45,669 bases of DNA from a virus, in the IMG/VR virus record IMGVR_UViG_3300024262_000058, positions 1-45,669 of that record, one strand, 5' to 3'. A program made the translations under genes and the position numbers. The notes below the pieces were generated by a model that was not told the origin of the DNA, ran no database searches, and was given only the letters and a program-made list of their open reading frames with translations. This document shows, in pieces, positions 1 to 45,669 of this stretch. The first letter of the stretch is position 1. Each line of letters starts with the position of its first letter.

Positions 1-349
1 TTACTAATAATTGACGAATTGCCCGCTTACTCAGGCCGTGCGCTTCATTGATAATCACACACTTGCCGCCGCGCCCCCAAGCCAAAGTATAGAGAGTGTT
101 CTCAAGCTCGGCCAGTTTCCCCGATGTAGCTTGACCTGCGTCAATCTCGTCAATATATATATCCTCAGCCACAAGTGAAGCGATAATACGAGCAAGTGTG
201 GTTTTGCCTGTGCCGCTCTGTCCTGATAACCAGAAGGCCCGGCCAGTCAAACCACGTTTGCCGATTGTCTGGATCTGTCTGATTGCTTTGTCCTGCCCTA
301 CAACTTCGTCAAAAGTTTTCGGGCGGTATTGCTCGAATAGTGTCTTCAT
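1..349 (-). CDS. AAA+ clamp-loader-like ATPase, N-terminal part (cut by window start)
   Basis: This is the first 116 codons of the ATPase that is complete at 44267-44911. The reading frame is open to base 1, so the C-terminal part is missing because the contig ends, not because of a mutation. A Walker A motif of the form GQSGTGKTT and a Walker B-like stretch ending in NEAHGL are visible. Bases 1-127 are identical to 44563-44689; after that about 20 of 220 bases differ, mostly at third codon positions, so both versions look functional. The start ATG (complement of 347-349) is preceded by GAGGGGAA. The stop of the upstream 57-aa gene overlaps it as ATGA, suggesting translational coupling. Confidence 0.8.
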   Translation of the reverse strand, partial: MKTLFEQYRPKTFDEVVGQDKAIRQIQTIGKRGLTGRAFWLSGQSGTGKTTLARIIASLVAEDIYIDEIDAGQATSGKLAELENTLYTLAWGRGGKCVIINEAHGLSKRAIRQLLV

Positions 350-519
350 AATATTCCCCTCTCGGTCAATTCTACGACTATTCCATTTGTAATCGCCAAT
401 CGTCCATAAAAACCAATTTTCCCAAACTGTTCAATGTCAAGCAAAAGCATATTAATTGAGCTGGCGGGTAACTCAGCAAGTGCTTTGCCTATTGCTTCCC
501 GCATCTGTGATTCAGTCAT
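346..519 (-). CDS. hypothetical 57-aa protein
   Basis: I read 57 residues starting MTESQMREAIGKALAELP and ending ELTERGIL. No family is recognised. It has an amphipathic, helix-prone N-terminal half and no membrane segment. Its TGA stop overlaps the ATG of the clamp-loader-like gene by four bases, and an AGAGAAG ribosome site precedes its own start. At the equivalent place in the second copy of this locus, a different gene (44922-45203) is found, so this is a swappable cassette. The tight overlap with a recognised gene supports it being real. Confidence 0.6.
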   Translation of the reverse strand: MTESQMREAIGKALAELPASSINMLLLDIEQFGKIGFYGRLAITNGIVVELTERGIL

Positions 520-541
520 AATCTTCTCTTCAAATTAAAGT

Positions 542-628
542 TTAGCACAACGCCAAATAAGCAAATCCAGCGATTACAAAAATCTCGTACCACTCCGAAC
601 CGATTAGCTTTGTTAGTAAATATTTCAT
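542..628 (-). CDS. 28-aa single-span membrane peptide
   Basis: A 28-residue ORF (MKYLLTKLIGSEWYEI... ending AYLALC) with one hydrophobic segment at residues 16-28. It overlaps the stop of the upstream 46-aa gene (ATG at complement of 626-628). The second copy at 45230-45316 keeps the same length, start and end while differing at several internal residues (for example EWWPILAITLFAYL), which is the pattern of a gene under selection and not of chance sequence. Function unknown; a small membrane-acting early phage peptide is an inference. Confidence 0.55.
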   Translation of the reverse strand: MKYLLTKLIGSEWYEIFVIAGFAYLALC

Positions 629-765
629 GTGCAAAATCCTTTCTGATAGTAGTAGTTCATAAGAGCCTTCAAGCTCTTGTACTCTTGACTGTCATACGAG
701 CCGCCGCAAGCATGCAGCCTGCGCTTTACATCGGCATACTTAGTTTGGTATTGCTTCTTAGTCAT
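625..765 (-). CDS. hypothetical 46-aa basic protein
   Basis: I read 46 residues starting MTKKQYQTKYADVKRR and ending YYYQKGFCT. It is rich in Lys, Arg and Tyr and looks soluble and helical. The copy at 45313-45453 has the same length with two conservative changes (K to R and Q to S), supporting a real gene. Start and stop overlap the neighbours on both sides (four-base overlaps), so the three small genes 542-911 form a coupled unit. No known family. Confidence 0.6.
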   Translation of the reverse strand: MTKKQYQTKYADVKRRLHACGGSYDSQEYKSLKALMNYYYQKGFCT

Positions 766-911
766 TTTTTTATCCTCGAAAAGGTGATCGCATTCGTAAA
801 GCCCAATACAATCATTGCAAGTTCATGTTTGGGCGTAGTGAGTTCACACCAAACAAACACCCAACTAATAATCCAAGCCCAAAACAGAATAGTCAAATAT
901 AGTTTGCTCAT
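762..911 (-). CDS. 49-aa small membrane protein
   Basis: A 49-residue ORF starting MSKLYLTILFWAWII with two hydrophobic segments (about residues 4-21 and 31-42) and a basic end (SRIKK). The upstream sequence contains AGGGGCTG, a fair ribosome site. The second copy (45446-45601) is nearly identical but runs two codons longer because the end is rearranged. A membrane location is inferred from composition; function unknown. Confidence 0.6.
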   Translation of the reverse strand: MSKLYLTILFWAWIISWVFVWCELTTPKHELAMIVLGFTNAITFSRIKK

Positions 912-988
912 TTTTCAGCCCCTTAATAAGACCACTTAACCGAGCGCTGTATTTGCCGACGGGTTCCACGGCGCAAGGTTGAAAGGTT

Positions 989-5250: not shown

Positions 5251-5535
5251 ATGGACAGAATAAAATGTAATGTCTGTAAGGCCGAGTCAGTCAACCTACC
5301 AAAGACTAAATTGGTGTGTATTGAGTGTTATCGCAAACTTCAAGCCGAGAACAAGGGGCTGGAAGAAGGTGATGCAATTTGTTCTTGGCAATGGATAACT
5401 ACAGCCAAATATCTGCCGAAGAAAATATATGAAGAAATTAAGGCTGAGCGAGCCCTGAAAGCACAGCCAGAAGAAAATCATTCGACAAATTCATTCAATC
5501 CAAATGATTACCCATTGAAAAGGGAAACAAAATGA
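5251..5535 (+). CDS. 94-aa zinc-finger-like protein
   Basis: The ATG at 5251 follows CAGGAGAATGAAA with good spacing; the ATG at 5245 is too close to the ribosome site. Starts MDRIKCNVCKAESV; CNVC at residues 6-9 and CIEC about residues 24-27 form a likely four-Cys zinc site, followed by a helix with LQAENKGLEE and an Asn/Pro-rich tail. Its stop overlaps the next start by four bases. No named family. Confidence 0.6.
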   Translation: MDRIKCNVCKAESVNLPKTKLVCIECYRKLQAENKGLEEGDAICSWQWITTAKYLPKKIYEEIKAERALKAQPEENHSTNSFNPNDYPLKRETK

Positions 5536-5981
5536 GAGTAAATAGAATGAAGACAATAAACACAATACTTTGGCTGATATTTGCTTTCTTCTGCCCTACC
5601 TGTGAGGCCGTACAGAAGGTCTGCGAATCCGAATTAGACACGATTGTACGAGCTGCGATTCGGAATGAGTGCACCGGCAAAGAAAACTTCAGAATACTCT
5701 TGGCTGTAAGACTACAGGAAAACGGAGGGCCGGGTAAAGAGTTTGGGATTAAACATCCGCGAGCTTGGGGAACCGATTTAGACACTCAAGCTGGATGGGC
5801 TGCTGCCACTATCACCAAGAGTAGGTTTCGTTGGAGAGTGGCAGGGAGGCCCTCTGAATTTATTTACTTTCTGGCCGACCGCTATTGTCCAAAGGAGTGC
5901 GATAGGGTCGGCCATATAAACTGGAAAAAGAACGTCAAGTATTGGTTTGAGAGACTGAAAAATGGTAACGACACTATTTGA
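5532..5981 (+). CDS. exported lysozyme-like / endolysin-type protein
   Basis: 149 residues. An N-terminal signal segment (residues ~6-26, ending in CEA) is followed by a domain with LLAVRLQENGGPGKEFG, then QAGWAAATITKSRFRW, FIYFLADRYCP and NWKKNVKYWFERL. This block order is known to me from phage proteins annotated as lysozyme-like or peptidoglycan-degrading; the Glu in LQENGG would be the catalytic acid. Signal-driven export fits an endolysin that does not need a classical holin channel. The substrate is not proven. It sits in the accessory block, far from the membrane protein at 36738. ATGA overlap with the upstream gene. Confidence 0.6.
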   Translation: MRVNRMKTINTILWLIFAFFCPTCEAVQKVCESELDTIVRAAIRNECTGKENFRILLAVRLQENGGPGKEFGIKHPRAWGTDLDTQAGWAAATITKSRFRWRVAGRPSEFIYFLADRYCPKECDRVGHINWKKNVKYWFERLKNGNDTI

Positions 5982-7129: not shown

Positions 7130-7315
7130 ATGGACGCGGAATTAAAACGCAAGCTATTATTAAGCATTCGGGCGCCGGGGTATGGCAAACGCGACAAGTT
7201 TATCATGTTGCGCGTGAGCGGCAAACAGAAGGCCGAGATACAAAAAACAGCGAAGAAACTAAGATGTAACGTGAGCCGGTATTTGTTGGGGCTACATGAG
7301 GTTTTTGATGAATAA
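7130..7315 (+). CDS. ribbon-helix-helix-type small DNA-binding protein
   Basis: 61 residues starting MDAELKRKLLLSIRA. From residue 25, FIMLRVSGKQKAEIQK followed by KKLRCNVSRYLLG matches the strand-helix-helix plan of Arc/MetJ-like (RHH) proteins, which bind operators as dimers. This is the only candidate transcription repressor I see in the rightward block and could act on the palindrome at 2260-2275; that link is inference. The stop is followed directly by the leader of the lipoprotein gene. Confidence 0.5.
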   Translation: MDAELKRKLLLSIRAPGYGKRDKFIMLRVSGKQKAEIQKTAKKLRCNVSRYLLGLHEVFDE

Positions 7316-7339
7316 ATGATATTTCAAAAGGGAGATAAA

Positions 7340-9142
7340 ATGATGAAAACAATAACGAAAAAAGTTTTGCCCGTTATGCCCGTTATGATTATTGTGTTGT
7401 TCATCGGGAGCGGGTGTATTGATGGCTCCCCGGTTGTACGGCTTGTTCAGGGCATAGAAATTATATTATTTGACGGATACGGAGAGGATTTTGAACGATT
7501 GGACGCGTGGGATACTGATGGGGTAGAAAAGATTTACGGAGCGGCGTTTGGATATTTATGCCGCGTACAAGCCGATGGTGTACCCGTGGCGGGTATTAGA
7601 GTCGAATGTCGTATTATCGCCCACCATGATCCTCTGGATATTGGAGAGGATATATGGGACAGGCAGGCCCCAAACGGAGAAAGATATGGTTATGTGCATC
7701 CTGTGCCTGATGGTAGTTGGGACAGGGACGAGGGGGTAGCGGTGGCCCACACAGACGCATCGGGAGCATGTGTTTTTCTAATTGGATTAGGCGATCCAGA
7801 CGTAGGCTTTGGGGCGATGCCGGATAGTGGTTATTTATGGCCTTCAGGTTCCGATGGTGTGTCAACGGCAGTGGAAGTGCAATTTGTCATTCGAAAAGCA
7901 AGCGGTGATATTGTAAGTGATTGTTCTATGGTGTTTTTTAGGTCGCAATATCAGAACTTTTGGGAGCCGTATGCAGGTATTTTTGGGAATTCCTTCTCTA
8001 CCTTGTATCCGTGGACTGGTTGGAAAAGTTTAGATAAAAACGGCGACACTACAACTACGGAAGTTAATTTTGGTCCGATTGGAGAATTGGAATTAGACGA
8101 AGTAGGATTGGTAAGAAAGTTTCCGTATCCGGGATTGCTTGATAAGAGTGGTTTACCTTCGCCGGATTGGATTGTGATTTATGACCCAAACTGTATTTTT
8201 ATAGCAGGTCCGCTTGTTCCAGACCCGAACTGTCCATATATCGTTGACCCGAATTGCCCGTGGTCGAATATCGTCAATCCTATTCCAGACGCAAACTGCC
8301 CTTGTTATATGAGAGGCCCCGACTGCCCTGACTATCCAGACCCTAATTGCATGATTCCAGACCCGAACTGTATGGTCCCGGACCCGAACTGTTATATTCT
8401 TGACCCCAACTGGCCGTGGGTGGAGGGGCCTATGGTTCCAGACCCGAATTGTTATTCGTACATTGATCCTAATGAAATTGGTCCAATTGTTCCGGGCGAT
8501 GAGCCAATGTCCGGTGAGGGATGGGAGTTTGTGGGATATTCCTGGCGAAAGTGGTATCCGGGTTGTGGTTGGTATTACATAAACGGCATGGTGGCTACAT
8601 GGCTTTCAGATATTGACGATCCAGATGCGGTCATGCTTGCTATGGACTTGTCTCAACCTTATGTGTTTTTATGTGTATTTAACGTAGATGATGTCCAGAA
8701 CATAAGGACGTTTGAACATACCGGCATATTGGTAAGCAAGAATAGCTTGGGACAGAAAGTTTCTCAGATGCCTATAAAATTGTATGCATATGGATTATCG
8801 GGTAGTTGGGTTTATCTGGCTACGAACTTTATTTTGCCGATGGAATTTCCTGAACAACAAGGCGAATACTATGACAGTTGGGGAAATTCTTACGCTGCTA
8901 TTTATGTCCCTGATGGCGGACATCTTGAAGTTGTAAAAGATGGTTTTTATGGCGACTTTAATTATGACGGTTATGTGGATAATCGGGATTATGGAATGTT
9001 TGCTGCAAGATGGAGCAAGGATGTGTTTGGGTTATATGATCCTAACAAAGCATACGACCTGATGTATGATGCCGATTATGACGGCCAAACGGATATGTCG
9101 GATTTAATGGACTTTTCAGATAATTGGTTGGAGATGAGATAA
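7340..9142 (+). CDS. large lipoprotein with DPNC repeats and a dockerin-type C-terminus
   Basis: 600 residues from the ATG at 7340, preceded by AAAAGGGAGATAAA. Residues 1-27 form a signal with a lipobox-like end (FIGSGC). The body has a beta-rich region (~30-280), then about ten D-P-N-C or near units (~281-378) with Pro and Cys, and a second beta-rich region. Near the end two calcium-loop segments appear: GDFNYDGYVDNRDYG (~537-551) and YDADYDGQTDMSD (~575-587), each followed by W-containing helix ends as in type I dockerins. Dockerins normally anchor to cohesins on cell surfaces; in a phage this suggests surface modification of the infected cell. It looks host-derived. Function untested. Confidence 0.65.
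   Translation: MMKTITKKVLPVMPVMIIVLFIGSGCIDGSPVVRLVQGIEIILFDGYGEDFERLDAWDTDGVEKIYGAAFGYLCRVQADGVPVAGIRVECRIIAHHDPLDIGEDIWDRQAPNGERYGYVHPVPDGSWDRDEGVAVAHTDASGACVFLIGLGDPDVGFGAMPDSGYLWPSGSDGVSTAVEVQFVIRKASGDIVSDCSMVFFRSQYQNFWEPYAGIFGNSFSTLYPWTGWKSLDKNGDTTTTEVNFGPIGELELDEVGLVRKFPYPGLLDKSGLPSPDWIVIYDPNCIFIAGPLVPDPNCPYIVDPNCPWSNIVNPIPDANCPCYMRGPDCPDYPDPNCMIPDPNCMVPDPNCYILDPNWPWVEGPMVPDPNCYSYIDPNEIGPIVPGDEPMSGEGWEFVGYSWRKWYPGCGWYYINGMVATWLSDIDDPDAVMLAMDLSQPYVFLCVFNVDDVQNIRTFEHTGILVSKNSLGQKVSQMPIKLYAYGLSGSWVYLATNFILPMEFPEQQGEYYDSWGNSYAAIYVPDGGHLEVVKDGFYGDFNYDGYVDNRDYGMFAARWSKDVFGLYDPNKAYDLMYDADYDGQTDMSDLMDFSDNWLEMR
8183..8474 (+). repeat. in-gene repeats encoding DPNC units
   Basis: The codons for Asp-Pro-Asn-Cys (GACCCGAACTGT and variants) recur about ten times at irregular 12- to 45-base spacing, often preceded by a codon for Pro. 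A few units are altered (DANC, GPDC, DPNW, DPNE). The repeated cysteines could form a disulfide-linked stalk outside the cell. Confidence 0.7.
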
Positions 9143-9357
9143 TGCTTTATCAAGAATTGTTGCTTTTCAAAGATGCGGTCGAAAGAAGATGCGGCAAAAT
9201 TATTCGTATAACCTTTGATGAAACGGGAAAAGCGGAATTGCTAAAAGAAATGAAAGGCAGAGACCCTTCGGTTTTTGACGGAAGCGTGATGCTTGGTATT
9301 CAGATAGATGCGGTTAAAAATTGTCCCACTTGCGGGCGTGAGTTGGAGATAAGATAA
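9142..9357 (+). CDS. 71-aa protein with a CPTCGR zinc knuckle
   Basis: Starts at the ATG that overlaps the lipoprotein stop by one base (TAATG), with GGAGATGAGA as ribosome site. Reads MLYQELLLFKDAVERR and ends with NCPTCGRELEIR; only one CxxC pair is visible, so a zinc site would need a dimer or partner. The stop overlaps the next ATG (TAATG). No family recognised. Confidence 0.6.
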   Translation: MLYQELLLFKDAVERRCGKIIRITFDETGKAELLKEMKGRDPSVFDGSVMLGIQIDAVKNCPTCGRELEIR

Positions 9358-9680
9358 TGAAATTGGCAATGAAAATCCTATTGGTCGTAGTCTTAATTTT
9401 TTGTTTTGAGGCTGTGGGTTTTTGGGCGGGCAGAGATAATCCTCGCGTAAATTATTACGCCACATTTGAAAACGGCTTTGCAGTAAAAGTGGACAGTATA
9501 GTTGCAGTTCCGATTTGGTCTGAAGAACAAGTAAGTATGATATGGCCTGAGTATTATGCCGAAACAAAAATCAAAGTTGAGGGTAATGAAATAATTTTGC
9601 GTTCGAGACCGTTTCTGTTTTGTGATAGCCCCGGAACAGCGGGGAGTTATAAAGACAGAAACGTCTATTGCCTTGATTGA
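9357..9680 (+). CDS. 107-aa membrane-anchored or exported protein
   Basis: Starts MKLAMKILLVVVLIFCFEAVGFWAG: a typical signal or N-terminal anchor over residues ~5-24. The exported part is beta-rich and ends RNVYCLD with Cys at two places. Coupled to the two previous genes by one-base overlaps, so it likely acts at the envelope together with the lipoprotein. Function unknown. Confidence 0.6.
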   Translation: MKLAMKILLVVVLIFCFEAVGFWAGRDNPRVNYYATFENGFAVKVDSIVAVPIWSEEQVSMIWPEYYAETKIKVEGNEIILRSRPFLFCDSPGTAGSYKDRNVYCLD

Positions 9681-9703
9681 CAAAATAGCACATCTCCTCC
9701 TCC

Positions 9704-9741
9704 GGGGGGCGGCTCAGGGAAGCCGGGGCCGTCCTCTTTTT
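9704..9741 (+). terminator. possible imperfect intrinsic terminator
   Basis: A G-rich run and CGGCT-CAGGGA-AGCCG hairpin core with outer GGC/GCC pairing (one GGG bulge) ends in CTTTTT. It lies between the lipoprotein operon and the HNH gene, where a transcription boundary is plausible. The stem is not perfect. Confidence 0.4.
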
Positions 9742-9760
9742 GTGGTAAAAAAGGTTTTTT

Positions 9761-10063
9761 ATGGACAAAAAATCAACGGGATTAAATTGTGAAATATGCG
9801 GGAAAACTATCTCGTATGGGTCGCAGAGGGCTTATCGATACAAACGAGGTCAAGTGCAAGGCAAATGCACTGCCCGAAGGCACCATGTTGCGCCTAAGCG
9901 TTACGGTGGCACGGATGACACCGAAAACATTGTTTATCTTTGCAGCGCTTGCCATGGGGAATTACGCGGCCTCTACCACTTCAAGGCCCTTTCCCTCGTT
10001 TTTAACCAAAATAGTTTGTTTTTTCAACAGTGCCTGGAGGAGTTGCGCAATGAAAAAGAATGA
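9761..10063 (+). CDS. HNH endonuclease
   Basis: 100 residues. CEICGK (residues 10-15) and LCSACH (residues ~60-65) supply the zinc knuckles; RHHVAPKRYGGTDDTEN gives the HH pair and Asn of the HNH active site. Short free-standing HNH proteins in phages cut DNA for packaging or act as homing-type nucleases. AAAAAAGG precedes the ATG. It overlaps the start of the replisome organiser gene, so it is a normal operon member and not an insertion inside a gene. Confidence 0.75.
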   Translation: MDKKSTGLNCEICGKTISYGSQRAYRYKRGQVQGKCTARRHHVAPKRYGGTDDTENIVYLCSACHGELRGLYHFKALSLVFNQNSLFFQQCLEELRNEKE

Positions 10064-13018: not shown

Positions 13019-14761
13019 ATGCCTCAAACAGCCGAAATTCCGATAACACCTGAATCCAAGGCGTACTTCGAGTCCAAAACATCGGAGGAAAAAGCAAAGC
13101 TGTTGGCTGAGGGTAACGCCTGCGTTTGGGCTGTATATCACAAACTGAAACTTCAATCCGGTCCATTTTCACTTAAAGGCCGGGAGTATCTTATGGAGTG
13201 GATTTATGGGCCGGAAAACAAAAAGAGAAGGGCAAGAAAACGATGCGCAATGAAAGCTCCGCAGGATGGTTTTAGTATCAGCGAAGCAATTAGTAATCTT
13301 CATGGCATGATAACCGGCATGTTTCGACAAGGGGTGCTTCACCTTTTACCCACGAAGGCCGCGGTGGAGGAATTTGGTAAAGCCAAATACGGCCCGTTGA
13401 TTGCCAAGAACAGAGCGGCTATCGGCAGATATATTAAAACCGGCATAAAAGGTTCCGACTCTGCCTCACTCAAACAAATCGGCGATGCTTTTCTCTACCT
13501 GAGAAGTGCAACGCTAAGCGCAGATGCAGGGGGCGATGGGAAAACATCTGTCCCGTTATCGAATATTTCCGTGGACAAAGTTGATTTTGACGAAATAGAA
13601 TTGATGGACACCGAATCTATTGCTTTGGCGATAGGGCGCATGGGGGCATCGGAAGTTCACGAAGAAGTTTATATCGCAAATCCGCTCGGCGAAGATTCGG
13701 GTATTGATTTAATATACAAACAATCCGACATGCGGCATTGGCACAGAAAATGTTCGTGTGTCGGCGGCGATCTGAGTGCGTGGACATGCGCCGAATTGGA
13801 CTTCCCTGATTGCATCAAAGAATATCCCGATGCCGATGAACGGGAACGCGAAGGAAAACACAGGGGCTTTATCGCATGTAAAAAATGCGGCAAGCCCGTT
13901 CCGATATGGGCGGGGCCGGGGACGGGCATGTGGATACCGGACAAACCCTCCGTGATAGATTTTGAAGGTTATCAAAAAGGACACCTAACCAGCAACTTCC
14001 ATGACCCTATTACAATTCTTAAAGAATTTGAAGACCCGCCTTATGGCAATTTAGGCGGTGTATATCGTATGCGTCTTGGTATGCCATTTTCGTCCGCAGA
14101 GGATAAACTCCGAGAGAATGTTGTTTTGGCAAACTGTGGAAATCACATTATGCCTACGAAGCATTCCGGCCCCTGCGCTATGGGGTTGGACGTGGGGATT
14201 ATTAAGCATATCATCATCGGTACAAGACTCGACAAAGAGCGATACGACATAGTTCGAGTGGCGCAGATAAAATCGTTCGATGATGCTTATGACATGTGTT
14301 TGAAATATGGTGTTAGATTCGGAGTAGTCGATATACGACCCTACGAGGATTCGGCAAGGGATTTTCAAAAGAAGTGCATGGCTAAGGGCATTACAATCTT
14401 TTTGTGCCAATACAACGATAGTCCGGTTCAAGAACAAGACTTCAACGATAACACGGGCGTTGTAAAAACTTATCGAACGGGAATCTTCGATCGCTCACAC
14501 AGAGTATTATCGAACGGTTGGATTATCCTGCCACGACAGGATTCGGCCATAAAAAAATTTGCTCAACAGTGTTGCAACTGCGAAAAATATCCTACACAAG
14601 ACAGGATCGGGGCTACCGTGATGCGATATAGAGTTTGTGGTAATCTCCGACAGGGAGACCATTATCGCAATACGCTGAATTACTTTTTGCTTGCGGCGGG
14701 CAGAACGCCGACTGTGAAGAAAAAAGGGTTTATAAGACAAACGGTTTGTATAAATGAATGA
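13019..14761 (+). CDS. terL: terminase large subunit
   Basis: 580 residues; packages DNA into the prohead by ATP hydrolysis and cuts concatemers. A deviant Walker A of the K-A-P-Q-D-G-F-S type is at residues 79-86 (the Lys stands at the start, not in GKT), and a Walker B-like VDFDE ends near 192. A Cys cluster (CSC at 245-247, C257, C265, CKKC at 287-290) suggests an inserted zinc ribbon, as in GpA-like terminases. Nuclease acidic residues are likely D391 (GLDVG) and D438 (VVDIRPYED), with D in GDHYRN near the end. Length is normal. It is separated from the small subunit by 11 kb. Confidence 0.85.
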   Translation: MPQTAEIPITPESKAYFESKTSEEKAKLLAEGNACVWAVYHKLKLQSGPFSLKGREYLMEWIYGPENKKRRARKRCAMKAPQDGFSISEAISNLHGMITGMFRQGVLHLLPTKAAVEEFGKAKYGPLIAKNRAAIGRYIKTGIKGSDSASLKQIGDAFLYLRSATLSADAGGDGKTSVPLSNISVDKVDFDEIELMDTESIALAIGRMGASEVHEEVYIANPLGEDSGIDLIYKQSDMRHWHRKCSCVGGDLSAWTCAELDFPDCIKEYPDADEREREGKHRGFIACKKCGKPVPIWAGPGTGMWIPDKPSVIDFEGYQKGHLTSNFHDPITILKEFEDPPYGNLGGVYRMRLGMPFSSAEDKLRENVVLANCGNHIMPTKHSGPCAMGLDVGIIKHIIIGTRLDKERYDIVRVAQIKSFDDAYDMCLKYGVRFGVVDIRPYEDSARDFQKKCMAKGITIFLCQYNDSPVQEQDFNDNTGVVKTYRTGIFDRSHRVLSNGWIILPRQDSAIKKFAQQCCNCEKYPTQDRIGATVMRYRVCGNLRQGDHYRNTLNYFLLAAGRTPTVKKKGFIRQTVCINE

Positions 14762-29545: not shown

Positions 29546-32500
29546 ATGGCTTCTTTGACGACAGAGGAACTCGATTTATTAGAACAAAAACAAAGCGCTC
29601 GCTCCTATTCCACAGAAGAGCTCGATGCGTTGGAGCGGGGATCGCCGTTTGGCGATAATACCGATGCCATTCTTTCTGCGACAGAGCGAACAACTGATGA
29701 AATCAGAGAAGATTCAGGCCAAATTTATGATTATTCATTAGAAACCGGAATACCACTCAGGGAATCAGAGCGGGTATATTACGGCCTGAACAAACTTGAC
29801 AATCCCGAAAAGCCGTCCGGCGCCGGTCGTTTTATAAAACAACTCTATAACAGTACGGTTGCAAATACTATAACTGCGATAAGAACAAAATCAGAACTTG
29901 GCAAACTTGGTACTGATTTAGAAGTGGCCGCTTTAGAGAAAGAAGATTTCAGATATAGAGCGGAAAATGGATTGCCTGTAAGTATAGAAGAAATTGAAGG
30001 ATACACAGCGCCTTATAAAAAGAGCACCCTTGGAAGTATGTTTGGTTTGAAAAGGCCGGATTGGGCTATCAAAATACGCGAGGATTATGAGGCCGGAAAA
30101 ATATCCGCATCCTTAATCCCCAGAAAAACACGCGCCGAACATATTAAGCGTTCGCAGGAAATATATAATATTGCCGAAGCAAGGCATTTTCAGGCGAATG
30201 ATATTTCAGCTTATGTACCTGAGCCGGAAGGAGTCAAAGAGAAAATAATTGATGCAGGTGCGGGCATATTTGGATTTGTAGCACAAATAGCCCTTCTAAA
30301 AAGATTATCCCCGACAATGCCGGAAGCAATGGTTTGGGAAATGGTCAATGAAGCCAACGGCGGCAAGCCGGGCACTGGCGCCGCTATGCAGCTTACTCTT
30401 GCAGGAATAGGAAAGGCAATACCCGGCACAGGCATTTTGCCTGCTGCCGGCAGAGGTACGGCTGGAAGCATATTTTTCGGTACAACAACATATTTAGGTG
30501 GCGGCGATACGGTCGATATTTTGATAAACATGGGGATACCTTTTGCGTTTGAAGGCATGGGATTCACCAAGCAAAAATGGGCCGAATATGGAAACAAAAC
30601 AGCACTCATTCAGTCTATTAAATATAAAGCCCCGTCGTTAAAGAACCGTCCCAATATCGAAATTGAAAAAGCAGTATCAGATTTATTGACCAACATAACA
30701 ATCGAGGCGGTCCGAGGGTTAAAGACCAAAGAAACAATGCAGAAAGAGTTCAAGCCAACGGAAACTAAAAAGGTTGATATATCTGAGGAAGTTAAGCGAT
30801 ACACGCAAGGCAAGAGATATGATGAGCTTCTTGAAAAAGCCAACGAAGGCAACAAAAAAGCAATCCAAGAGTTGAACGATCTTGTTCAGGGCAAGAATAT
30901 CCCGACATACGAACAGTTACTTGAAAAAGGATACAACGGCGATGTAAAAGCGTTTGAACAAATACAGGAAGGCAATTATCAGGGTGGACCGGGTGCGAAG
31001 CCGGAACTCGAGATACCGAAAAAGAAGGTGGCAAAAGCTGAGGCCGTATCAAAGCCGCTTACAACTATAGAGCAGATGAAAGCCAAGGCCGAGATCATCC
31101 AAAACGATCTAAGACCGCCCGAAAAAATAGATGCCTTGAACTTGAAGAAAGCCAGGGAGCGCGGATTCATAACCAGCATCAAGGAAGTCCTGCCCAAACT
31201 GAAAATTGAGGGCCAGTACATTCCGAGAAGTACGGACGTTCTCGCCATCAAAGCCCGTAACTTGATTATAGACGATTTACCAAAAGCCGAGAAAGTGGCA
31301 TTAAAAGGCAATAGTGATGTATCAGTTGCAGTCGCTTCCGAGCTTATAAAATATTATGGCGAACAGGCGGCAAAGGCCAAAACAAAGGTAGAAGCGGATG
31401 CGCTTTATGAAAGAGCGGCTGTTATAGGCAATGATACCGCACGCAAACTTACTGAGGCTGGAAGAATAGTGCAGGCGGCTTTTATCCTCAGCAGATTGAC
31501 ACCTGAAGGGCAAGTTAGATTTGCCGCAAGGGAGATTCAGAAATACAACGAGAAGGTTGAAACGGAACGCGGCGGTCTTTTGGGTCTTAGAAAAAAGATT
31601 CCAGAACTAACCGGAAAACAGGCCGAACATATTTTGAAGGAGATGAGAGAAATTACAGCTATGCCGGATGGCAAGGCCAAGGTCATTCGATTCAACAAGT
31701 TACAGACGCATGTTTCGGAATTAGTGCCAACGCCATTATATAACAAGATCATCACTATTTGGAAGGCTGGTTTGCTTACAGGTATTAAAACACATGGTCT
31801 GAATTTATATGCAAATCTTTTTCACGTTGGAACTGAAACAATAAAAGATATTCCTGCAACTGCTGTCGATAAGATTGCTTCGATATTCACTGGAAAAAGA
31901 ACAGTAACACCGACTATTAAAGGAATTAAAGGCGGAGGGATAGAGGGACAAAGTAAGGGATGGGAATATATCAAAAGTGGTTACAGTGAAAGAGACATCG
32001 GCGTTAAACTTGATTTGAAAAAAGTCAATATGGGTAAGGGCAATCTTGCTAAGGCATTACAAGCATATACTGAAGGCGTATTTCGTCTTATGGGTGCCGG
32101 GGATCAGCCGTTTTATTATGCCACAAAAGTAAGGTCTTTGTGGCAACAAGCCAAAATCGCAGCAATCAATCAGGGATTAAAAGGCGCAAAAGCACAAAAA
32201 TTCATTGATAATCTTTTCCAGAATCCTACCGAAAAGATGGTTAAGAATGCCACCAAAGATGCCGAAACTGCGGTCTTTATCAACAATACAAAACTTGGTA
32301 ATATAGCGAGAGGAATACAGAAATTGCCAGGTGGCGAAATAATTGTGCCTTTCGGAAGAACGCCATCGGCTGTTGCTATGCAGATCGTAAATTACTCTCC
32401 TGTTGGAATTGCAAAAACTATCATTGAAAACATTGGCAAGGGCAGATTTGACCAAAGAGCTTTTTCGCAGGGAGTAGGCAGGGGGATCACGGGCACGGCT

Positions 32501-33469
32501 GTCTTGGTTATAGGCGCCGCTTTGTATGATAACGACCAAATTACATTAGACAGGCCAACAAACGAGAAAGAACGCAAACTCTGGGAAATTGAAGGCAGGC
32601 AGGCCAATACCATCAAAATAGGCGATAAGTGGCGAACCGTTCAAGCCTTCGGCCCTGCCGGAAATCTTTTGATTATCGGCGGTCATTTCAAAAGAGCCTT
32701 TGAGGAATCGGGCAGTCCCACGGAAGCCATATCAGAGGCAATTATAGGAAGTGGTAAATCTTTTACCGAGCAGACATTCATGCGGGGCGTTAATCAATTC
32801 GTTGGCGCGCTTGCCGACCCTGAACGCTCGGCTTCTTTTGTTGTTGGCAATACAATATCCTCGATAGTGCCGACAATCGTTTCTGATGTCGCAAGGGCAA
32901 CGGACGTTAAAGAACGCAGGGCCGAAACTGTTCCTGAAAAGATAATGGCAAGAGTGCCGGGTGCAAGGCAGGCTCTCGAGCCGCAAGTAACGGTGCTTGG
33001 CGAAGAAAAAGAGCCGACAGCAAATCCATTGGAGTTGATGTTAGACCCGACAAGGCCATCGAAAGAAATATCATCTCCCGTCATAACCGAATTAAGAAGG
33101 CTATGGGACGAAGGGTGGGAAGTATCTCCATCGCTCTTAGGTACGAGAACAGGATATGAAGTTTTGTCGAAACAGGAAAATACGCAGCTATGGAAACAGG
33201 CCGGTTCGATAACGAATGATGCTCTTGGCATATTGATAACGAATCCATTATATAACGACCTGCCCGATGAGACAAAGGCCGATGCAATCAGTAAAATTAT
33301 TACAGGTTCGCAAACCGCCGCTAAGACTGAAATGGTTGTTAAGAAGCTCACTGGATTAGACGGCAAGGAACTGAACGATATGATTTTTGAACTTCGCAAA
33401 TCAGGGCTTGCAACTCAGGATATTATCCCTGTTGCATTAAGCAAACGCAACCCCAGAAAGGCAAAATGA
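29546..33469 (+). CDS. large internal virion (ejection) protein, gp16-like
   Basis: 1307 residues, the largest gene in the window. It opens with a short repeated motif (TTEELDLLEQ and STEELDALERG, residues 4-33). The rest is mainly helical with possible hydrophobic helices near residues ~240-320. No lytic transglycosylase domain is evident, unlike T7 gp16, so cell-wall cutting during entry may be done by another protein. The central block GNIARGIQKLPGGEIIVPFGRTPSAVAMQ resembles sequence in related large ejection proteins. Starts directly after the gp15-like stop (TAAATGG). Confidence 0.65.
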   Translation: MASLTTEELDLLEQKQSARSYSTEELDALERGSPFGDNTDAILSATERTTDEIREDSGQIYDYSLETGIPLRESERVYYGLNKLDNPEKPSGAGRFIKQLYNSTVANTITAIRTKSELGKLGTDLEVAALEKEDFRYRAENGLPVSIEEIEGYTAPYKKSTLGSMFGLKRPDWAIKIREDYEAGKISASLIPRKTRAEHIKRSQEIYNIAEARHFQANDISAYVPEPEGVKEKIIDAGAGIFGFVAQIALLKRLSPTMPEAMVWEMVNEANGGKPGTGAAMQLTLAGIGKAIPGTGILPAAGRGTAGSIFFGTTTYLGGGDTVDILINMGIPFAFEGMGFTKQKWAEYGNKTALIQSIKYKAPSLKNRPNIEIEKAVSDLLTNITIEAVRGLKTKETMQKEFKPTETKKVDISEEVKRYTQGKRYDELLEKANEGNKKAIQELNDLVQGKNIPTYEQLLEKGYNGDVKAFEQIQEGNYQGGPGAKPELEIPKKKVAKAEAVSKPLTTIEQMKAKAEIIQNDLRPPEKIDALNLKKARERGFITSIKEVLPKLKIEGQYIPRSTDVLAIKARNLIIDDLPKAEKVALKGNSDVSVAVASELIKYYGEQAAKAKTKVEADALYERAAVIGNDTARKLTEAGRIVQAAFILSRLTPEGQVRFAAREIQKYNEKVETERGGLLGLRKKIPELTGKQAEHILKEMREITAMPDGKAKVIRFNKLQTHVSELVPTPLYNKIITIWKAGLLTGIKTHGLNLYANLFHVGTETIKDIPATAVDKIASIFTGKRTVTPTIKGIKGGGIEGQSKGWEYIKSGYSERDIGVKLDLKKVNMGKGNLAKALQAYTEGVFRLMGAGDQPFYYATKVRSLWQQAKIAAINQGLKGAKAQKFIDNLFQNPTEKMVKNATKDAETAVFINNTKLGNIARGIQKLPGGEIIVPFGRTPSAVAMQIVNYSPVGIAKTIIENIGKGRFDQRAFSQGVGRGITGTAVLVIGAALYDNDQITLDRPTNEKERKLWEIEGRQANTIKIGDKWRTVQAFGPAGNLLIIGGHFKRAFEESGSPTEAISEAIIGSGKSFTEQTFMRGVNQFVGALADPERSASFVVGNTISSIVPTIVSDVARATDVKERRAETVPEKIMARVPGARQALEPQVTVLGEEKEPTANPLELMLDPTRPSKEISSPVITELRRLWDEGWEVSPSLLGTRTGYEVLSKQENTQLWKQAGSITNDALGILITNPLYNDLPDETKADAISKIITGSQTAAKTEMVVKKLTGLDGKELNDMIFELRKSGLATQDIIPVALSKRNPRKAK

Positions 33470-33603: not shown

Positions 33604-36558
33604 ATGCTTATAAATCCAGTTTATGAACCAATACCGCCCTTAGAAAACAATAAGCTCCTGACTAACGATGGTACGGATATGAGTTGGACGGACACACCGA
33701 CCGTTGCCGGCCTTATTTCTACCGGCGTAATCAGGGCCTCCGATTTTGCAAAAACAGGTTGGCCTATTGTAACCGGGGCAACTTTTTCTTTTAGTTACCC
33801 GACCTTTACCGTTACAGACGGCGGCTCGGCTTATTATTATATTGATGGAGTCAAGTACACGCTAAGTGGCAACAAGACGGTCAACATAACCGACACTGAA
33901 GGATTGTGGTATATCTATTTTAATGGAGCCACACTTACGGCATCTCAAACTATTTGGAGTTTTAGGGATGAGGATAAAGCCTTAGTAGCCTATTTACATT
34001 GGGATGCTACAAACAACAAAGAGATATTTTTAGGGTGGGAAGCACACACTTTTTACATGGACGGGCACACACACGCAAGGCTTCATTATGCCGGTGGTGC
34101 AAGATGGGAAACTGGACTACTCGTATCTGATGCGGGCTCTGAAACAGTGAATGTAGCAGCGGGGAATATGTGGGATGAGGATTTGAAACTATCCATAACA
34201 GACGGTGCCGGAGCCGCTCTTTTCGAGCAGGTCTTATCCCCCGCGGAACTCCCGATTTATTATCTCGATGGAGCAAGTAATTGGCGTATCTATGAAACTA
34301 CGGACAAAGCTAACGCAACCGATGCCGGATATGTGGATGGTTCCAATGATTTGAAATATAACAAACTGAACGGTACATGGGCTAATGCTACCGTAGGACT
34401 TAACAATTATGTAGCCTATTACGTTGTGGCGACTAATGAGCAAACTGAACCAATCGCTTTAATCATGGGCCAGCGAGTAGATAATAAACTTTCTGATGCG
34501 AAAGAGAACAATATATTTGGCGGATTGACACTTACCGGACTTCCTTTTCAAGAGATGGTTGTACTTGCCAGGCTTATATTAAAAGACACGGCAACTTATA
34601 CATTAGAGGAAGTTCTTGATTTGAGAGTATATAATATAAAAGGAAATATCACAAGTCCGTTAAGTCCAGATCATGGAGGACTTGCCGGATTAGCTGATGA
34701 CGACCATGTGCAATATCTTCTTGCCGACGGAACGCGAACATTGACCAGTTTGGTTCTTGGTGCCAATCCTTCTGTAATTTCCTCTGCGAATGCAATACAG
34801 ATTAAACCTTCCGGCGATACGGATGATTACTTGGAATTTTCTACGAGTTCTGATATTCCTCGAATTGGGATTAAGGGGGGTAACAACTTATACATAGTTG
34901 GAGATGTTAGCGGTGCAGGCATAAGATTAGTTTCGAGCACGAATTATAGTCAGATAAAATACATTTCAGGGTCTGATACTTTTCAAATATTAAGTTCTGG
35001 AGACATTCATCTTAGAACGGGCGATGGTACAATTGATTACTTATATATTCAAACGTGTGGGGATACGGACGATTATATTTATATGGCAACAGCAAACCAT
35101 GTCCCAACAATCGGTACAGTTGGTGCTTGCAATTTGAAGATAACCGCATCGAGTGGCGAGATAGATTTCGACAACGAAAATCTTTCCACAACGGGAGACA
35201 TCGCCGCTCTTACTCTCTCATCAGATACGTTCAGGTCCGCCGATGAGAGTATGAGCGTTGCCTGGGGCGATACTGCCGCCGGTTCACTGGTGTTGGATGG
35301 AGATGGTGATTATGTAACCACGACAACGGCCCCGACTCTTGACGTTGATAAAGGCTCTATTGCAATTTGGTTCAAATATAATGCTACAGTTGGGTCGGAC
35401 GGGGTCAATAGAATGCTCTTCGAGGTATCTACTTTATCGGGGGCAAATGTTGACCGCATTTCTTTGTATCGGGAAGGTGCCACACATGATGTGCAATTAA
35501 GATACCGAGAAGCAAGTACCAACAATGTTGTCGCGTCTGCTGTATTTGACACTACTACGGGTGAGGATACTTGGCATCTTCTCGTTGGTACGTGGGATGC
35601 CGATGATAATATAGACCTTTTCATTGATGGCTCTGAGGATGATGCGGGGACAGAGACAAGAGACGGCAACTGTACTCTCGCCAACCTTGACAGTCTGATA
35701 ATTGGCGCGGCACGTGTGTTATTAACTCAGGTATGGAAGGGCGAATTATCAGATGCCATGATATTTAATGATGAACTGACATCAGCCGAGATAGCTGCTT
35801 TATACGCATTAGGAATGAACCCTGCCGCGATTACCGCGGGTGCGGGAAGTGCCAAGCTAATCGGCTGGTGGCCTCTTACGGCAGATGCAACAGACTCGGT
35901 AGGAACCTCCCACGGAACCTTTGTCGGCAATGCTTATATTAACAGCACCTTGGTAATAGGTCTTAATACGAATGACCCGTTGTTGGTCAACGGAGCATTT
36001 ACTGTTGTGGGTGCGGGGAATGTAACGGGTAATTTTCGTGTCGCTGGTGAAATTTTAACAACGAAAGTAGTCGGTCAGGGCGATTTGTGGTTAGAGTCCT
36101 CTGATAAAGGTGCTTCAACTAATTTTGTTAAGTCTGAAACGATAAACGACCACACCACTGCCTCTGCTGCGAACATATCTATAAACAACGATGTTATTGA
36201 AAAATCAACGTCTGCGAAGCGGGATGGTTTGTGGAAAAAACACGTTGCATTGTTAGAACCAGATTCGAGTAAGTTTATGCAGTTAAGGCCTTCTATATTC
36301 AAATCTCGGCACAAGAACGATGACCAGGATAAACTCAGGTTTGGGCTGTATGCAGAGGAAGTGGGAGATGTTTATCCTGGCGTAGCTGTTTGGGAAGAAC
36401 GGGATTTTCTGGTTGAGCCTGTGTCTGATGGCGACCCTCCTACTGTTATTACTGAGCGTATCATAGTCAACTATGATACAAGAGAGCTTATTGCTTTAAT
36501 GGTCGCAGAAATACAGGCTCAGGAAAAACGAATTGAAATACTAGAAAAAAGAGTCTAA
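33604..36558 (+). CDS. tail fibre/spike with LamG-like domain and S74-type C-terminus
   Basis: 984 residues. The N-terminus (MLINPVYEPIPPLEN) is the likely virion anchor. The middle has beta-rich repeats (for example PSGDTDDYLEFSTSSDIP). Residues ~560-740 (VLDGDGDYVTTTTAPTLD, GSIAIWFKYNATV, LFIDGSEDD) form a concanavalin/LamG-like carbohydrate-binding domain. The end (AAANISINND, HVALLEPDSSKF, GLYAEEVGDVYPGV, ELIALMVAEIQAQEKRIEILEKR) matches the peptidase S74 intramolecular chaperone, which trims itself after trimerisation. It recognises the host surface. Promoter and stop lie as expected; 14 bases before the next gene. Confidence 0.75.
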   Translation: MLINPVYEPIPPLENNKLLTNDGTDMSWTDTPTVAGLISTGVIRASDFAKTGWPIVTGATFSFSYPTFTVTDGGSAYYYIDGVKYTLSGNKTVNITDTEGLWYIYFNGATLTASQTIWSFRDEDKALVAYLHWDATNNKEIFLGWEAHTFYMDGHTHARLHYAGGARWETGLLVSDAGSETVNVAAGNMWDEDLKLSITDGAGAALFEQVLSPAELPIYYLDGASNWRIYETTDKANATDAGYVDGSNDLKYNKLNGTWANATVGLNNYVAYYVVATNEQTEPIALIMGQRVDNKLSDAKENNIFGGLTLTGLPFQEMVVLARLILKDTATYTLEEVLDLRVYNIKGNITSPLSPDHGGLAGLADDDHVQYLLADGTRTLTSLVLGANPSVISSANAIQIKPSGDTDDYLEFSTSSDIPRIGIKGGNNLYIVGDVSGAGIRLVSSTNYSQIKYISGSDTFQILSSGDIHLRTGDGTIDYLYIQTCGDTDDYIYMATANHVPTIGTVGACNLKITASSGEIDFDNENLSTTGDIAALTLSSDTFRSADESMSVAWGDTAAGSLVLDGDGDYVTTTTAPTLDVDKGSIAIWFKYNATVGSDGVNRMLFEVSTLSGANVDRISLYREGATHDVQLRYREASTNNVVASAVFDTTTGEDTWHLLVGTWDADDNIDLFIDGSEDDAGTETRDGNCTLANLDSLIIGAARVLLTQVWKGELSDAMIFNDELTSAEIAALYALGMNPAAITAGAGSAKLIGWWPLTADATDSVGTSHGTFVGNAYINSTLVIGLNTNDPLLVNGAFTVVGAGNVTGNFRVAGEILTTKVVGQGDLWLESSDKGASTNFVKSETINDHTTASAANISINNDVIEKSTSAKRDGLWKKHVALLEPDSSKFMQLRPSIFKSRHKNDDQDKLRFGLYAEEVGDVYPGVAVWEERDFLVEPVSDGDPPTVITERIIVNYDTRELIALMVAEIQAQEKRIEILEKRV

Positions 36559-37192: not shown

Positions 37193-37660
37193 TTACGGTT
37201 TCCTCGTTACCAAATCATACAAATCCTGCGGAGAGCACTTTTCCCCGCTCCATCGCGGCAAAGCACCGATCCATCTAAAGCCCATTTTTCTACGAAAAGT
37301 CTCGGAACAATAATCTTTGCGGGGGTCTTGTTTTATAAGCCCGAAAGTAGGCCATGCAAGCAAGCCCGCCCAATCATACTCAATTCGGCCATCATCCAGT
37401 TCACATAGCAGAAACAAACGCTCGACTTGGTATGGCTTGAATGCAACAGGGACTATATCCCATTTATCAGGATTGCCCGATATTACCTCAGAGACGAAAC
37501 CTCTGGCTGTGGAATGAAAACTTAGAGTTTCTTCCACATAATATTCATAGATAAATCGACCAGCTACATGGCAATACTTGCTTTTAGTCCACCAGCCGAT
37601 TAGATGAGAAATGGGATTCTTCTTGCCTTCGATTTTTCGGAATAATAATTCAAATCTCAT
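37193..37660 (-). CDS. permuted papain-like (YiiX/NlpC-P60 type) protein
   Basis: 155 residues from the ATG at 37660 (MRFELLFRKIEGKKN). The His of KYCHVAGRFIYEYY (about residue 31) and the Cys of DYCSETFRRKMGF (about residue 117) fit the His/Cys pair of the circularly permuted papain-like fold in YiiX and related hydrolases; the end SPQDLYDLV is also typical. This family may cleave peptide or acyl bonds in envelopes; whether it acts on peptidoglycan is unknown. Overlaps the lipoprotein gene upstream. Confidence 0.6.
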   Translation of the reverse strand: MRFELLFRKIEGKKNPISHLIGWWTKSKYCHVAGRFIYEYYVEETLSFHSTARGFVSEVISGNPDKWDIVPVAFKPYQVERLFLLCELDDGRIEYDWAGLLAWPTFGLIKQDPRKDYCSETFRRKMGFRWIGALPRWSGEKCSPQDLYDLVTRKP

Positions 37661-38004
37661 GGCGTTTTCTTCTTTCCATATTTGCCGCCCATAAAAGCAT
37701 TGGTGAGAAGTGAGGCCAATGCTATCCACGTTACAGGGTCTTTTTCTCTGCCCTTCAAACTTTCAATAGCAGCCACAGTTTCGGGCTTGATTACCGGCAA
37801 GGCCACACCATCTATCTCGCCTTCGATAAGCGCGGTTGTGGCGTTCAGTTCGTTCACCGCTGCTATGAAATTTTCCTGGGCTTCATCGCTCATAATCTTC
37901 ATCGCGGCAACGCCGCTGCCGAAACCAACCCCGTACTCTGCGCCACACCCGCCCAGAATAACTGCGGACACAATTAAACAAATTATCATTAAAACCTTTT
38001 TCAT
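37657..38004 (-). CDS. small lipoprotein (115 aa)
   Basis: From the ATG at 38004: MKKVLMIICLIVSAVILGGCG is a signal peptide with lipobox LGGC (Cys at about residue 20). The mature part has AAVNELNATTALIEGE and an end AFMGGKYGKKKTP. AAGGAAAAACGC is the ribosome site. It overlaps the papain-like gene downstream by four bases; together they look like an exported pair. Spanin-like function is possible, not shown. Confidence 0.6.
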   Translation of the reverse strand: MKKVLMIICLIVSAVILGGCGAEYGVGFGSGVAAMKIMSDEAQENFIAAVNELNATTALIEGEIDGVALPVIKPETVAAIESLKGREKDPVTWIALASLLTNAFMGGKYGKKKTP

Positions 38005-38044
38005 TGCGTTTTTCCTTCTAAATAAAGTTATTGTTATTATTGCT

Positions 38045-44266: not shown

Positions 44267-44911
44267 CTATTTTTTCAGCATCGCCCCGGACTCTACCGCC
44301 TGAAGCATAGCCCGCATATTGTTTCGATACGTTTGTGCCAAGCGGACATAATCTTTCATCTCCTGCCCGTTAAGCCCCTCTTTTGTCGCTATTTCCCTGC
44401 AACGCTTTGCAAAAGGCTTTGCCAAGTCGCGCCGTGCCAAGTCGATCCTAACGCAACGTGAAAGCAACGGTGCGGTATCCTCAGAACCGTCAAATAGTAG
44501 TTCCTGTCCTTCAATGGTTGTCGTGAATATAAAACAAACGTGAGATGGTAATCGTTCCAGCATTACTAATAATTGACGAATTGCCCGCTTACTCAGGCCG
44601 TGCGCTTCATTGATAATCACACACTTGCCGCCGCGCCCCCAAGCCAAAGTATAGAGAGTGTTCTCAAGCTCGGCCAGTTTCCCCGATGTCGCTTGACCTG
44701 CGTCAATTTCGTCAATATATATATCCTCAGCTACAAGTGAAGCGATAATACGAGCAAGTGTGGTTTTGCCGGTGCCGCTCTGTCCAGAAATCCAGAAGGC
44801 ACGGCCAGTCAAGCCGCGTTTGCCGATTGTCTGGATCTTCTGGATCGCTTTATCCTGCCCGACTACTTCGTCAAATGTTTTCGGGCGGTATTGTTCGAAT
44901 AGTGTTTTCAT
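44267..44911 (-). CDS. AAA+ clamp-loader-like ATPase (complete copy)
   Basis: 214 residues from the ATG at 44911 (MKTLFEQYRPKTFDEVVG), behind GAAGGGGAGACC; the longer frame to 44938 is not shared with the left copy, so the shorter start is preferred. Walker A GQSGTGKTT (~residues 40-48), Walker B-like VIINEAHG with the DEAD-box-like Glu, sensor-type FIFTTT. It lacks the C-terminal collar of clamp loaders (~300+ residues in DnaX/RFC), so it is a shortened RFC/DnaX-type ATPase. No DNA polymerase or clamp gene is seen in the window. Confidence 0.75.
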   Translation of the reverse strand: MKTLFEQYRPKTFDEVVGQDKAIQKIQTIGKRGLTGRAFWISGQSGTGKTTLARIIASLVAEDIYIDEIDAGQATSGKLAELENTLYTLAWGRGGKCVIINEAHGLSKRAIRQLLVMLERLPSHVCFIFTTTIEGQELLFDGSEDTAPLLSRCVRIDLARRDLAKPFAKRCREIATKEGLNGQEMKDYVRLAQTYRNNMRAMLQAVESGAMLKK

Positions 44912-44921
44912 GGTCTCCCCT

Positions 44922-45203
44922 TCAATTAGCCGCGGCAATGTTTTCTTTTAGTTGCTCAACGGTATCGAGCATGTGTATATTTCGGGATTCTGGCTTCGAC
45001 TGTGTAGTGTGTGCCGAAGTTGTACGAGAATACTTTTGCTTATGCCCGTACCATTGATTCTTAATCTTAGCCCAAATCGGCCAATAGCCATAAGAGTACA
45101 CGACATACAAAGTATCGGACACTCTCACGCCTGACAAGTTGTTACCTTGAAACGGTTGACATTTGTTTACAAACTGTTTACATTCGCTGTTGATTGTTTT
45201 CAT
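44922..45203 (-). CDS. conserved phage DUF8033-like protein (93 aa)
   Basis: Starts MKTINSECKQFVNKC and has FQGNNLSGVRV, LYVVYSYGYWPIWAK and KYSRTTSAHTTQ, the gNNL...YvVySYG..WP...ySrTTS pattern of a common small phage protein of unknown function. It takes the place that the 57-aa gene (346-519) has in the other haplotype. ATTAAAGTTTT leader module and GAAGGGGAGACT precede it. Confidence 0.7.
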   Translation of the reverse strand: MKTINSECKQFVNKCQPFQGNNLSGVRVSDTLYVVYSYGYWPIWAKIKNQWYGHKQKYSRTTSAHTTQSKPESRNIHMLDTVEQLKENIAAAN

Positions 45204-45229
45204 AGTCTCCCCTTCATTAAAGTTTTAGT

Positions 45230-45316
45230 TTAACACAACGCCAAATAAGCAAACAACGTAATAGCCAGAATAGGCCACCACTCACTACCGATTAGACTTA
45301 TTAGTAAATACTTCAT
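45230..45316 (-). CDS. 28-aa single-span membrane peptide, second copy
   Basis: Same length as 542-628; starts MKYLLISLIGSEWW and ends LFAYLALC. Several residues differ while hydrophobicity is kept. Overlaps the upstream 46-aa gene by three bases. Confidence 0.55.
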   Translation of the reverse strand: MKYLLISLIGSEWWPILAITLFAYLALC

Positions 45317-45453
45317 GTGCAAAATCCCTTCGAATAGTAGTAATTCATAAGAGCCTTCAAGCTCCTATACTCTTGACTGTCATACGAGCCGCCGCAAGCA
45401 TGCAGCCTGCGCTTTACATCGGCATACTTAGTTTGGTATTGCTTCTTAGTCAT
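45313..45453 (-). CDS. 46-aa basic protein, second copy
   Basis: Starts MTKKQYQTKYADVKRR, same length as 625-765, differing by K-to-R and Q-to-S. Located between the other two duplicated small genes. Confidence 0.55.
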   Translation of the reverse strand: MTKKQYQTKYADVKRRLHACGGSYDSQEYRSLKALMNYYYSKGFCT

Positions 45454-45601
45454 AATGTTTTATCCTCGAAAAGGTGATTGCATTCGTAAAGCCCAATACA
45501 ATCATTGCAAGTTCATGTTTGGGCGTAGTGAGTTCACACCAAACAAACACCCAACTAATAATCCAAGCCCAAAACAGAATAATCAAATATAGTTTACTCA
45601 T
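45446..45601 (-). CDS. 51-aa small membrane protein, second copy
   Basis: Starts MSKLYLIILFWAWII; same as 762-911 except T-to-I and an end IKHYD, because a short indel before the next gene shifts the stop. Two hydrophobic spans. Its promoter is beyond the window end. Confidence 0.55.
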   Translation of the reverse strand: MSKLYLIILFWAWIISWVFVWCELTTPKHELAMIVLGFTNAITFSRIKHYD

Positions 45602-45669
45602 TTTTCAGCCCCTTAATAAAACCACTTAACCGAGCACCGAATTAACGGCGCAAGGTTGAACAGTCTCAG

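Follow-up and report, generated by a model that had tools for sequence, protein, structure and literature searches.

The lipoprotein gene and its surroundings

The stretch of DNA analysed here, referred to as the window, is the virus record IMGVR_UViG_3300024262_000058 with its 45,669 bases. A PHROG search found in it terminase, head-tail adaptor, tail and internal virion protein families, a podovirus-like gene set in agreement with the preliminary description, and a Phage_capsid_2 protein is also encoded. The structural block extends from 13 to 36.6 kb. Outside this block, on the same strand as the structural genes and between the genes for the small (at 1422) and the large (at 13019) terminase subunit, lies the gene for a predicted lipoprotein of 600 amino acids, with the following parts and neighbors:

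7130..7315, + strand: 61-aa gene, NikA/ribbon-helix-helix-like (PF21983, 23.5 bits, below the cut-off of 27)
7340..9142, + strand: lipoprotein gene, open reading frame for 600 aa, stop codon included; full-length homologues in two related phages
7340..7417, + strand: signal peptide and lipobox, aa 1–26, with the predicted lipidated Cys26 (from the sequence; Cys26 invariant in the relatives)
7418..8029, + strand: N-terminal region, aa 27–230 (68% conserved; strands only in a very low-confidence model)
8165..8494, + strand: Cys/Pro-rich arm, aa 276–385, with degenerate xxPDPNC repeats (composition, 21-nt repeats, invariant cysteines)
8495..8929, + strand: second region, aa 386–530 (66–67% identity to the relatives)
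8930..9139, + strand: dockerin-type end, aa 531–600, with calcium loops at 539–550 and 577–588 (PF00404 score, loops, model)
9142..9357, + strand: 71-aa gene with a CxxC at its end (TAATG overlap with the lipoprotein gene)
9357..9680, + strand: 107-aa protein with an N-terminal membrane anchor and an exported part (conserved partner)

The ATG at 7340 is directly preceded by an AAGGGAG-like ribosome-binding site; an alternative upstream ATG at 7316 would yield a protein of 608 aa. The N-terminus has the features of a lipoprotein signal as judged by eye (a KK n-region, a hydrophobic core and IGSG-C26), and Cys26 is invariant in three phages, which bears out the earlier prediction of a lipoprotein. 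The DPNC repeats described earlier are likewise present. There are 7 DPNC and 10 DPN in the protein, and the arm (aa 276–385) contains 10 of the 17 cysteines and 26 prolines within 110 residues. At the DNA level seven degenerate 21-nt copies are found at 8174–8452, and a DNA pattern for the DPNC repeat with its 7-residue spacing matched no other viral contig.

Little can be said about the fold of the N-terminal and middle regions, for which the full-length model from three sequences (pLDDT 30) is useless. Aa 27–230 are probably beta-rich in this model, and the N-terminal and middle regions look Ig-like by appearance. In a whole-protein profile search no solved structure was matched, the second region (aa 386–530) has no Pfam or NCBIfam match, and Dockerin_1 is the sole family found for the lipoprotein in PHROG, NCBIfam and Pfam.

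Only two other viral contigs (L002 and L003), both related phage genomes of ~44 kb, encode the lipoprotein. Their copies are full length, 68% identical to that of the window and situated at the same genomic place. Contamination by a cellular contig was dismissed, since all three phage genomes carry the gene in the same position. The ends of the window (1–953 and ~44562–45643) are imperfect repeats of each other (94.6% and 89.2%), and end repeats are also found in the relatives, a perfect one of 114 bp in the L002 contig and one of 88.6% over 720 columns in that of L003. Because of these repeats all three appear to be complete genomes that are circularly permuted and were assembled from a mixture of strains. 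Searches for Rfam families and tRNAs found none, and promoter- and terminator-like patterns in the window were close to the shuffle expectation.

A gene-by-gene comparison showed that the majority of the small genes between the two terminase genes are not common to the three phages. The lipoprotein gene is one of the few that are; the others found in both relatives are those for a secreted protein (5532–5981), a 92-aa protein with only weak similarity to the relatives, the NikA-like protein (82% and 68% identity) and the 107-aa protein (66% and 61% in the part that matches), the last being encoded close downstream of the lipoprotein in both. In L002 the NikA-like gene and the lipoprotein gene are separated by an additional gene for 195 aa (9393–9980); judged by eye, its product may be an enzyme of DNA modification. 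Elsewhere in the window, the internal virion protein of 1307 aa (29546–33469, + strand) is 85% identical in the L003 genome and has no match in that of L002, and a second small predicted lipoprotein (37657–38016, − strand; ILGGC) was not found in the two relatives.

TAATG overlaps at 9140–9144 and 9355–9359 join the genes for the lipoprotein, the 71-aa and the 107-aa protein, as would be expected from the coupled three-gene unit with one exported product that had been proposed. The 71-aa gene is, however, not strictly kept: its identity is only 35% in L003, and L002 has no match to it. What is conserved as a unit is thus the lipoprotein together with the anchored 107-aa protein. For the latter no family match above cut-off was found in Pfam and NCBIfam; a 38% match in L032 lay outside any listed open reading frame and was dropped.

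A spanin pair consists of a small outer-membrane lipoprotein and an inner-membrane coiled-coil partner. The combination of a lipoprotein with a membrane-anchored protein recalls such a two-component bridge, and both are kept in a variable region alongside the secreted 5532–5981 protein, which is possibly lysozyme-like in appearance. The lipoprotein could thus act late, assisting in lysis or at the envelope, and join with the 107-aa protein to bridge the membranes or the wall of an unusual envelope in a spanin-like role. This is quite unlikely, however, as the lipoprotein with its 600 aa is far larger than known spanin lipoproteins, no coiled-coil is visible by eye, no lysis family was matched in Pfam, PHROG or NCBIfam, and the lysozyme-like appearance of the 5532–5981 protein finds no family match in Pfam or NCBIfam.

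The dockerin-type end

Dockerins are cellular plugs by which enzymes and surface complexes are assembled. The last 70 residues of the lipoprotein, seen as a two-loop dockerin-like end already in the preliminary description, do contain two strict calcium loops, DFNYDGYVDNRD at aa 539 and DADYDGQTDMSD at aa 577. At least one strict loop was present in 163 of 200,000 shuffles and two loops in none of them, and for this reason the two loops cannot be put down to composition. With the Dockerin_1 profile (PF00404) the last 70 aa scored 21.7 bits (E 2.4e-4), the whole protein 14.7 and the six-frame translation 20.5. The HMM check suggested earlier thus gave a match, which, however, just misses the curated Pfam cut-off of 22.9 bits, and the end is therefore called dockerin-type here and not filed as a member of Dockerin type I. 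Of the relatives, the L003 end scored 16.6 bits; a score for L002 is not reported.

A model of the 70-aa end (pLDDT 73, pTM 0.62) has one helix after each loop (helices 18–32 and 56–64). All 13 matches obtained with it by Foldseek against the PDB were dockerins or dockerin-bearing chains, none of them individually significant, and VIA-align to the type II dockerin 2y3n_B gave a Z of 8.2 and an rmsd of 2.2 over 58 residues. It should be noted that the alignment underlying the model comprises 12 phage-borne segments, dockerin-like sequences among them, so that the fold test is partly circular. In a search of the PDB with the profile from this alignment, dockerins ranked above troponin and calmodulin. 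Within the limits of this partly circular test, a dockerin-like fold of the end is supported by the modeling, the top matches being dockerins rather than EF-hand pairs. The end thus shares with dockerin modules (PF00404; 2y3n_B) the two D-x-[DN]-x-D-G-x-x-D-x-x-D loops, a helix after each, the C-terminal position and, in the model, the same fold. It differs from them in its sub-cut-off score, in being carried by a phage lipoprotein, in a longer inter-loop linker and in having no known cohesin partner.

The lipoprotein is under purifying selection, which is strongest in the dockerin-type end. Relative to the window copy, dN/dS is 0.12 for L002 and 0.11 for L003, with the signal peptide as the loosest part (0.57–0.61) and the dockerin-type end at 0.06–0.07, all of these ratios being approximate because dS is saturated, or almost so, in several cases. 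Identity is also highest in the end (80–83%), and Cys26, nine cysteines of the arm and the acidic residues of the loops are invariant in the three phages. This conservation has to be considered when asking whether the end has a partner at all. The loop starts are 38 residues apart, a wider spacing than that of the remaining phage-borne segments in the alignment, no cohesin was found in the three phages, and the score remains below the Pfam cut-off. All this would fit an end that is a calcium-stabilized cap with no cohesin partner, on a protein that aids the cell or the virus otherwise, as a surface adhesin or coat. We regard this explanation as less likely, since conservation is highest in the end, which suggests a binding surface rather than a mere cap.

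Dockerin-type proteins in other phage contigs

With a DNA pattern that describes a single dockerin-type loop, 33 viral stretches were matched. Exported dockerin-type proteins recur among them in unrelated phage contigs. For example, a 97-aa lipoprotein is encoded among tail genes (L040:10172–10462; PF00404 25.7 bits), an exported protein with LamG plus dockerin near a terminase (L041:1093–2220; 27.3 bits), and two further exported dockerin-type proteins near an RNA polymerase (L038:9579–10166; 20.0 bits) and near a terminase (L026:8214–8807; 17.7 bits), the signal or lipoprotein peptides of these four having been called by eye. The four resemble the lipoprotein of the window in combining a signal or lipoprotein peptide with dockerin-type loops on contigs with clear phage genes, and differ from it in an otherwise unrelated sequence. 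When these loci were compared with the lipoprotein profile, only weak matches were obtained and none at E 0.01 or better outside L043, where the match is a loop match. Judged by sequence, the four proteins are not relatives of the lipoprotein beyond the loops. Five contigs (L020, L027, L030, L037 and L043) encode a phage protein family with a common N-terminus (MNYLTNYYKNLSE...), repeated GDxNxDGxVDGxDLG loops and no obvious signal peptide.

In another phage, a baseplate-wedge-like protein carries two dockerin-type loops (L039:5759–8248). Such loops in a baseplate wedge protein would be in line with the lipoprotein being itself a virion component, e.g., a tail or surface decoration with a dockerin-type module for adsorption. 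The lipoprotein signal and the location of the gene outside the structural block speak against this, and we consider it very unlikely.

Origin and host

Dockerin-ended surface proteins are common in Planctomycetes, and the preliminary description had suggested that the gene was captured from such a host. The literature contains further points of contact. For freshwater Planctomycetes a non-cellulosomal cohesin/dockerin assembly has been proposed (PMC6461901), and the Planctomyces envelope is reported to consist of disulfide-held protein rich in proline and cysteine (PMC3035269). These observations would be compatible with the phage having acquired the gene from a planctomycete host only recently, its product still functioning as a surface protein of the host. 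The data obtained here do not favor a capture. Scans of GTDB with patterns for the whole protein and for the C-terminal third yielded candidate stretches, none of which was confirmed as a relative, although it has to be kept in mind that such scans rely on short peptide patterns, have a low sensitivity and miss distant relatives. The codon usage of the lipoprotein gene is within the range of the other genes of this phage. In addition, the gene is common to all three phages at 68% identity and with low dN/dS, so that any capture would be old; a recent one is highly improbable. The preliminary description had looked to a dockerin match or to host homologues for its reading; the dockerin match was found, if below threshold, and a host homologue was not. 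Nor was a relative of the lipoprotein found in the phage and plasmid collections, as far as the search methods could reveal one, and searches with terminase and portal added nothing to the phage group but short fragments, none of which extends to the lipoprotein gene.

A planctomycete as host is nevertheless plausible on circumstantial grounds, since an end of this style and a Cys/Pro-rich arm would be in keeping with this group. Like the Cys/Pro-rich envelope proteins of Planctomycetes, including the Cys-rich YTV wall proteins, the lipoprotein is rich in cysteine and proline and has an envelope location, here a predicted one (PMC3035269, PMC8567305). The likeness is, however, one of composition with no demonstrated sequence relation, and YTV proteins have been reported only in Planctomycetales (PMC8567305).

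Possible function in the host envelope

Our preferred explanation, which we put forward tentatively, is that the exported, lipid-anchored lipoprotein docks in the host envelope, alters the surface and probably shields against further adsorption or injection. The infected cell would make the phage lipoprotein, export it via Sec and anchor it at Cys26 in its envelope. The Cys/Pro-rich arm with its DPNC repeats is perhaps stiffened or cross-linked by disulfides, and the calcium-binding dockerin-type end would most likely plug into a cohesin-like domain, or an equivalent of one, that the host envelope provides. The 107-aa protein, encoded just downstream, may act together with the lipoprotein. The surface altered in this way would probably guard the infected cell, or the progeny once released, against additional adsorption or injection. 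The exclusion lipoproteins known so far, among them Llp, are small, and the 600 aa found here count against an exclusion role.

Such a role in exclusion or protection is proposed, with a perhaps, because of the analogy with phage lipoproteins such as Llp of T5, which excludes superinfection (PMC9586334). Ltp of a Streptococcus phage is another superinfection-excluding phage lipoprotein (PMC3952083). Common to Llp, Cor, Ltp and the protein described here would be that a phage-encoded lipoprotein is expected in the host envelope (PMC9586334, PMC3952083). Unlike these, the latter is large and modular and has a dockerin-type end, and a sequence relation to the Llp, Cor and Ltp families was not evident, with no PHROG, NCBIfam or other Pfam match. 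The tail fiber (33604–36558, + strand), which has a LamG domain, aligns over only 24–38% of its length in the relatives. The lipoprotein is kept although the tail fiber is mostly replaced, and a function linked to a single fiber-specific receptor is therefore somewhat less likely.

An unlikely but more far-reaching explanation is that the lipid-anchored protein plugs into the host's own cohesin-based assembly and in this way takes over or seals the surface of the (probably planctomycete) host, and that unrelated phages have adopted the same device. If a host partner exists, a virus would here be using the cohesin-dockerin plug, of which no report was found in the literature searched, and the host lineage would be indicated as well. 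Together, the conserved lipoprotein and the recurring exported dockerin-type proteins suggest that the surface assembly of poorly cultured bacteria is being exploited or imitated by their viruses.
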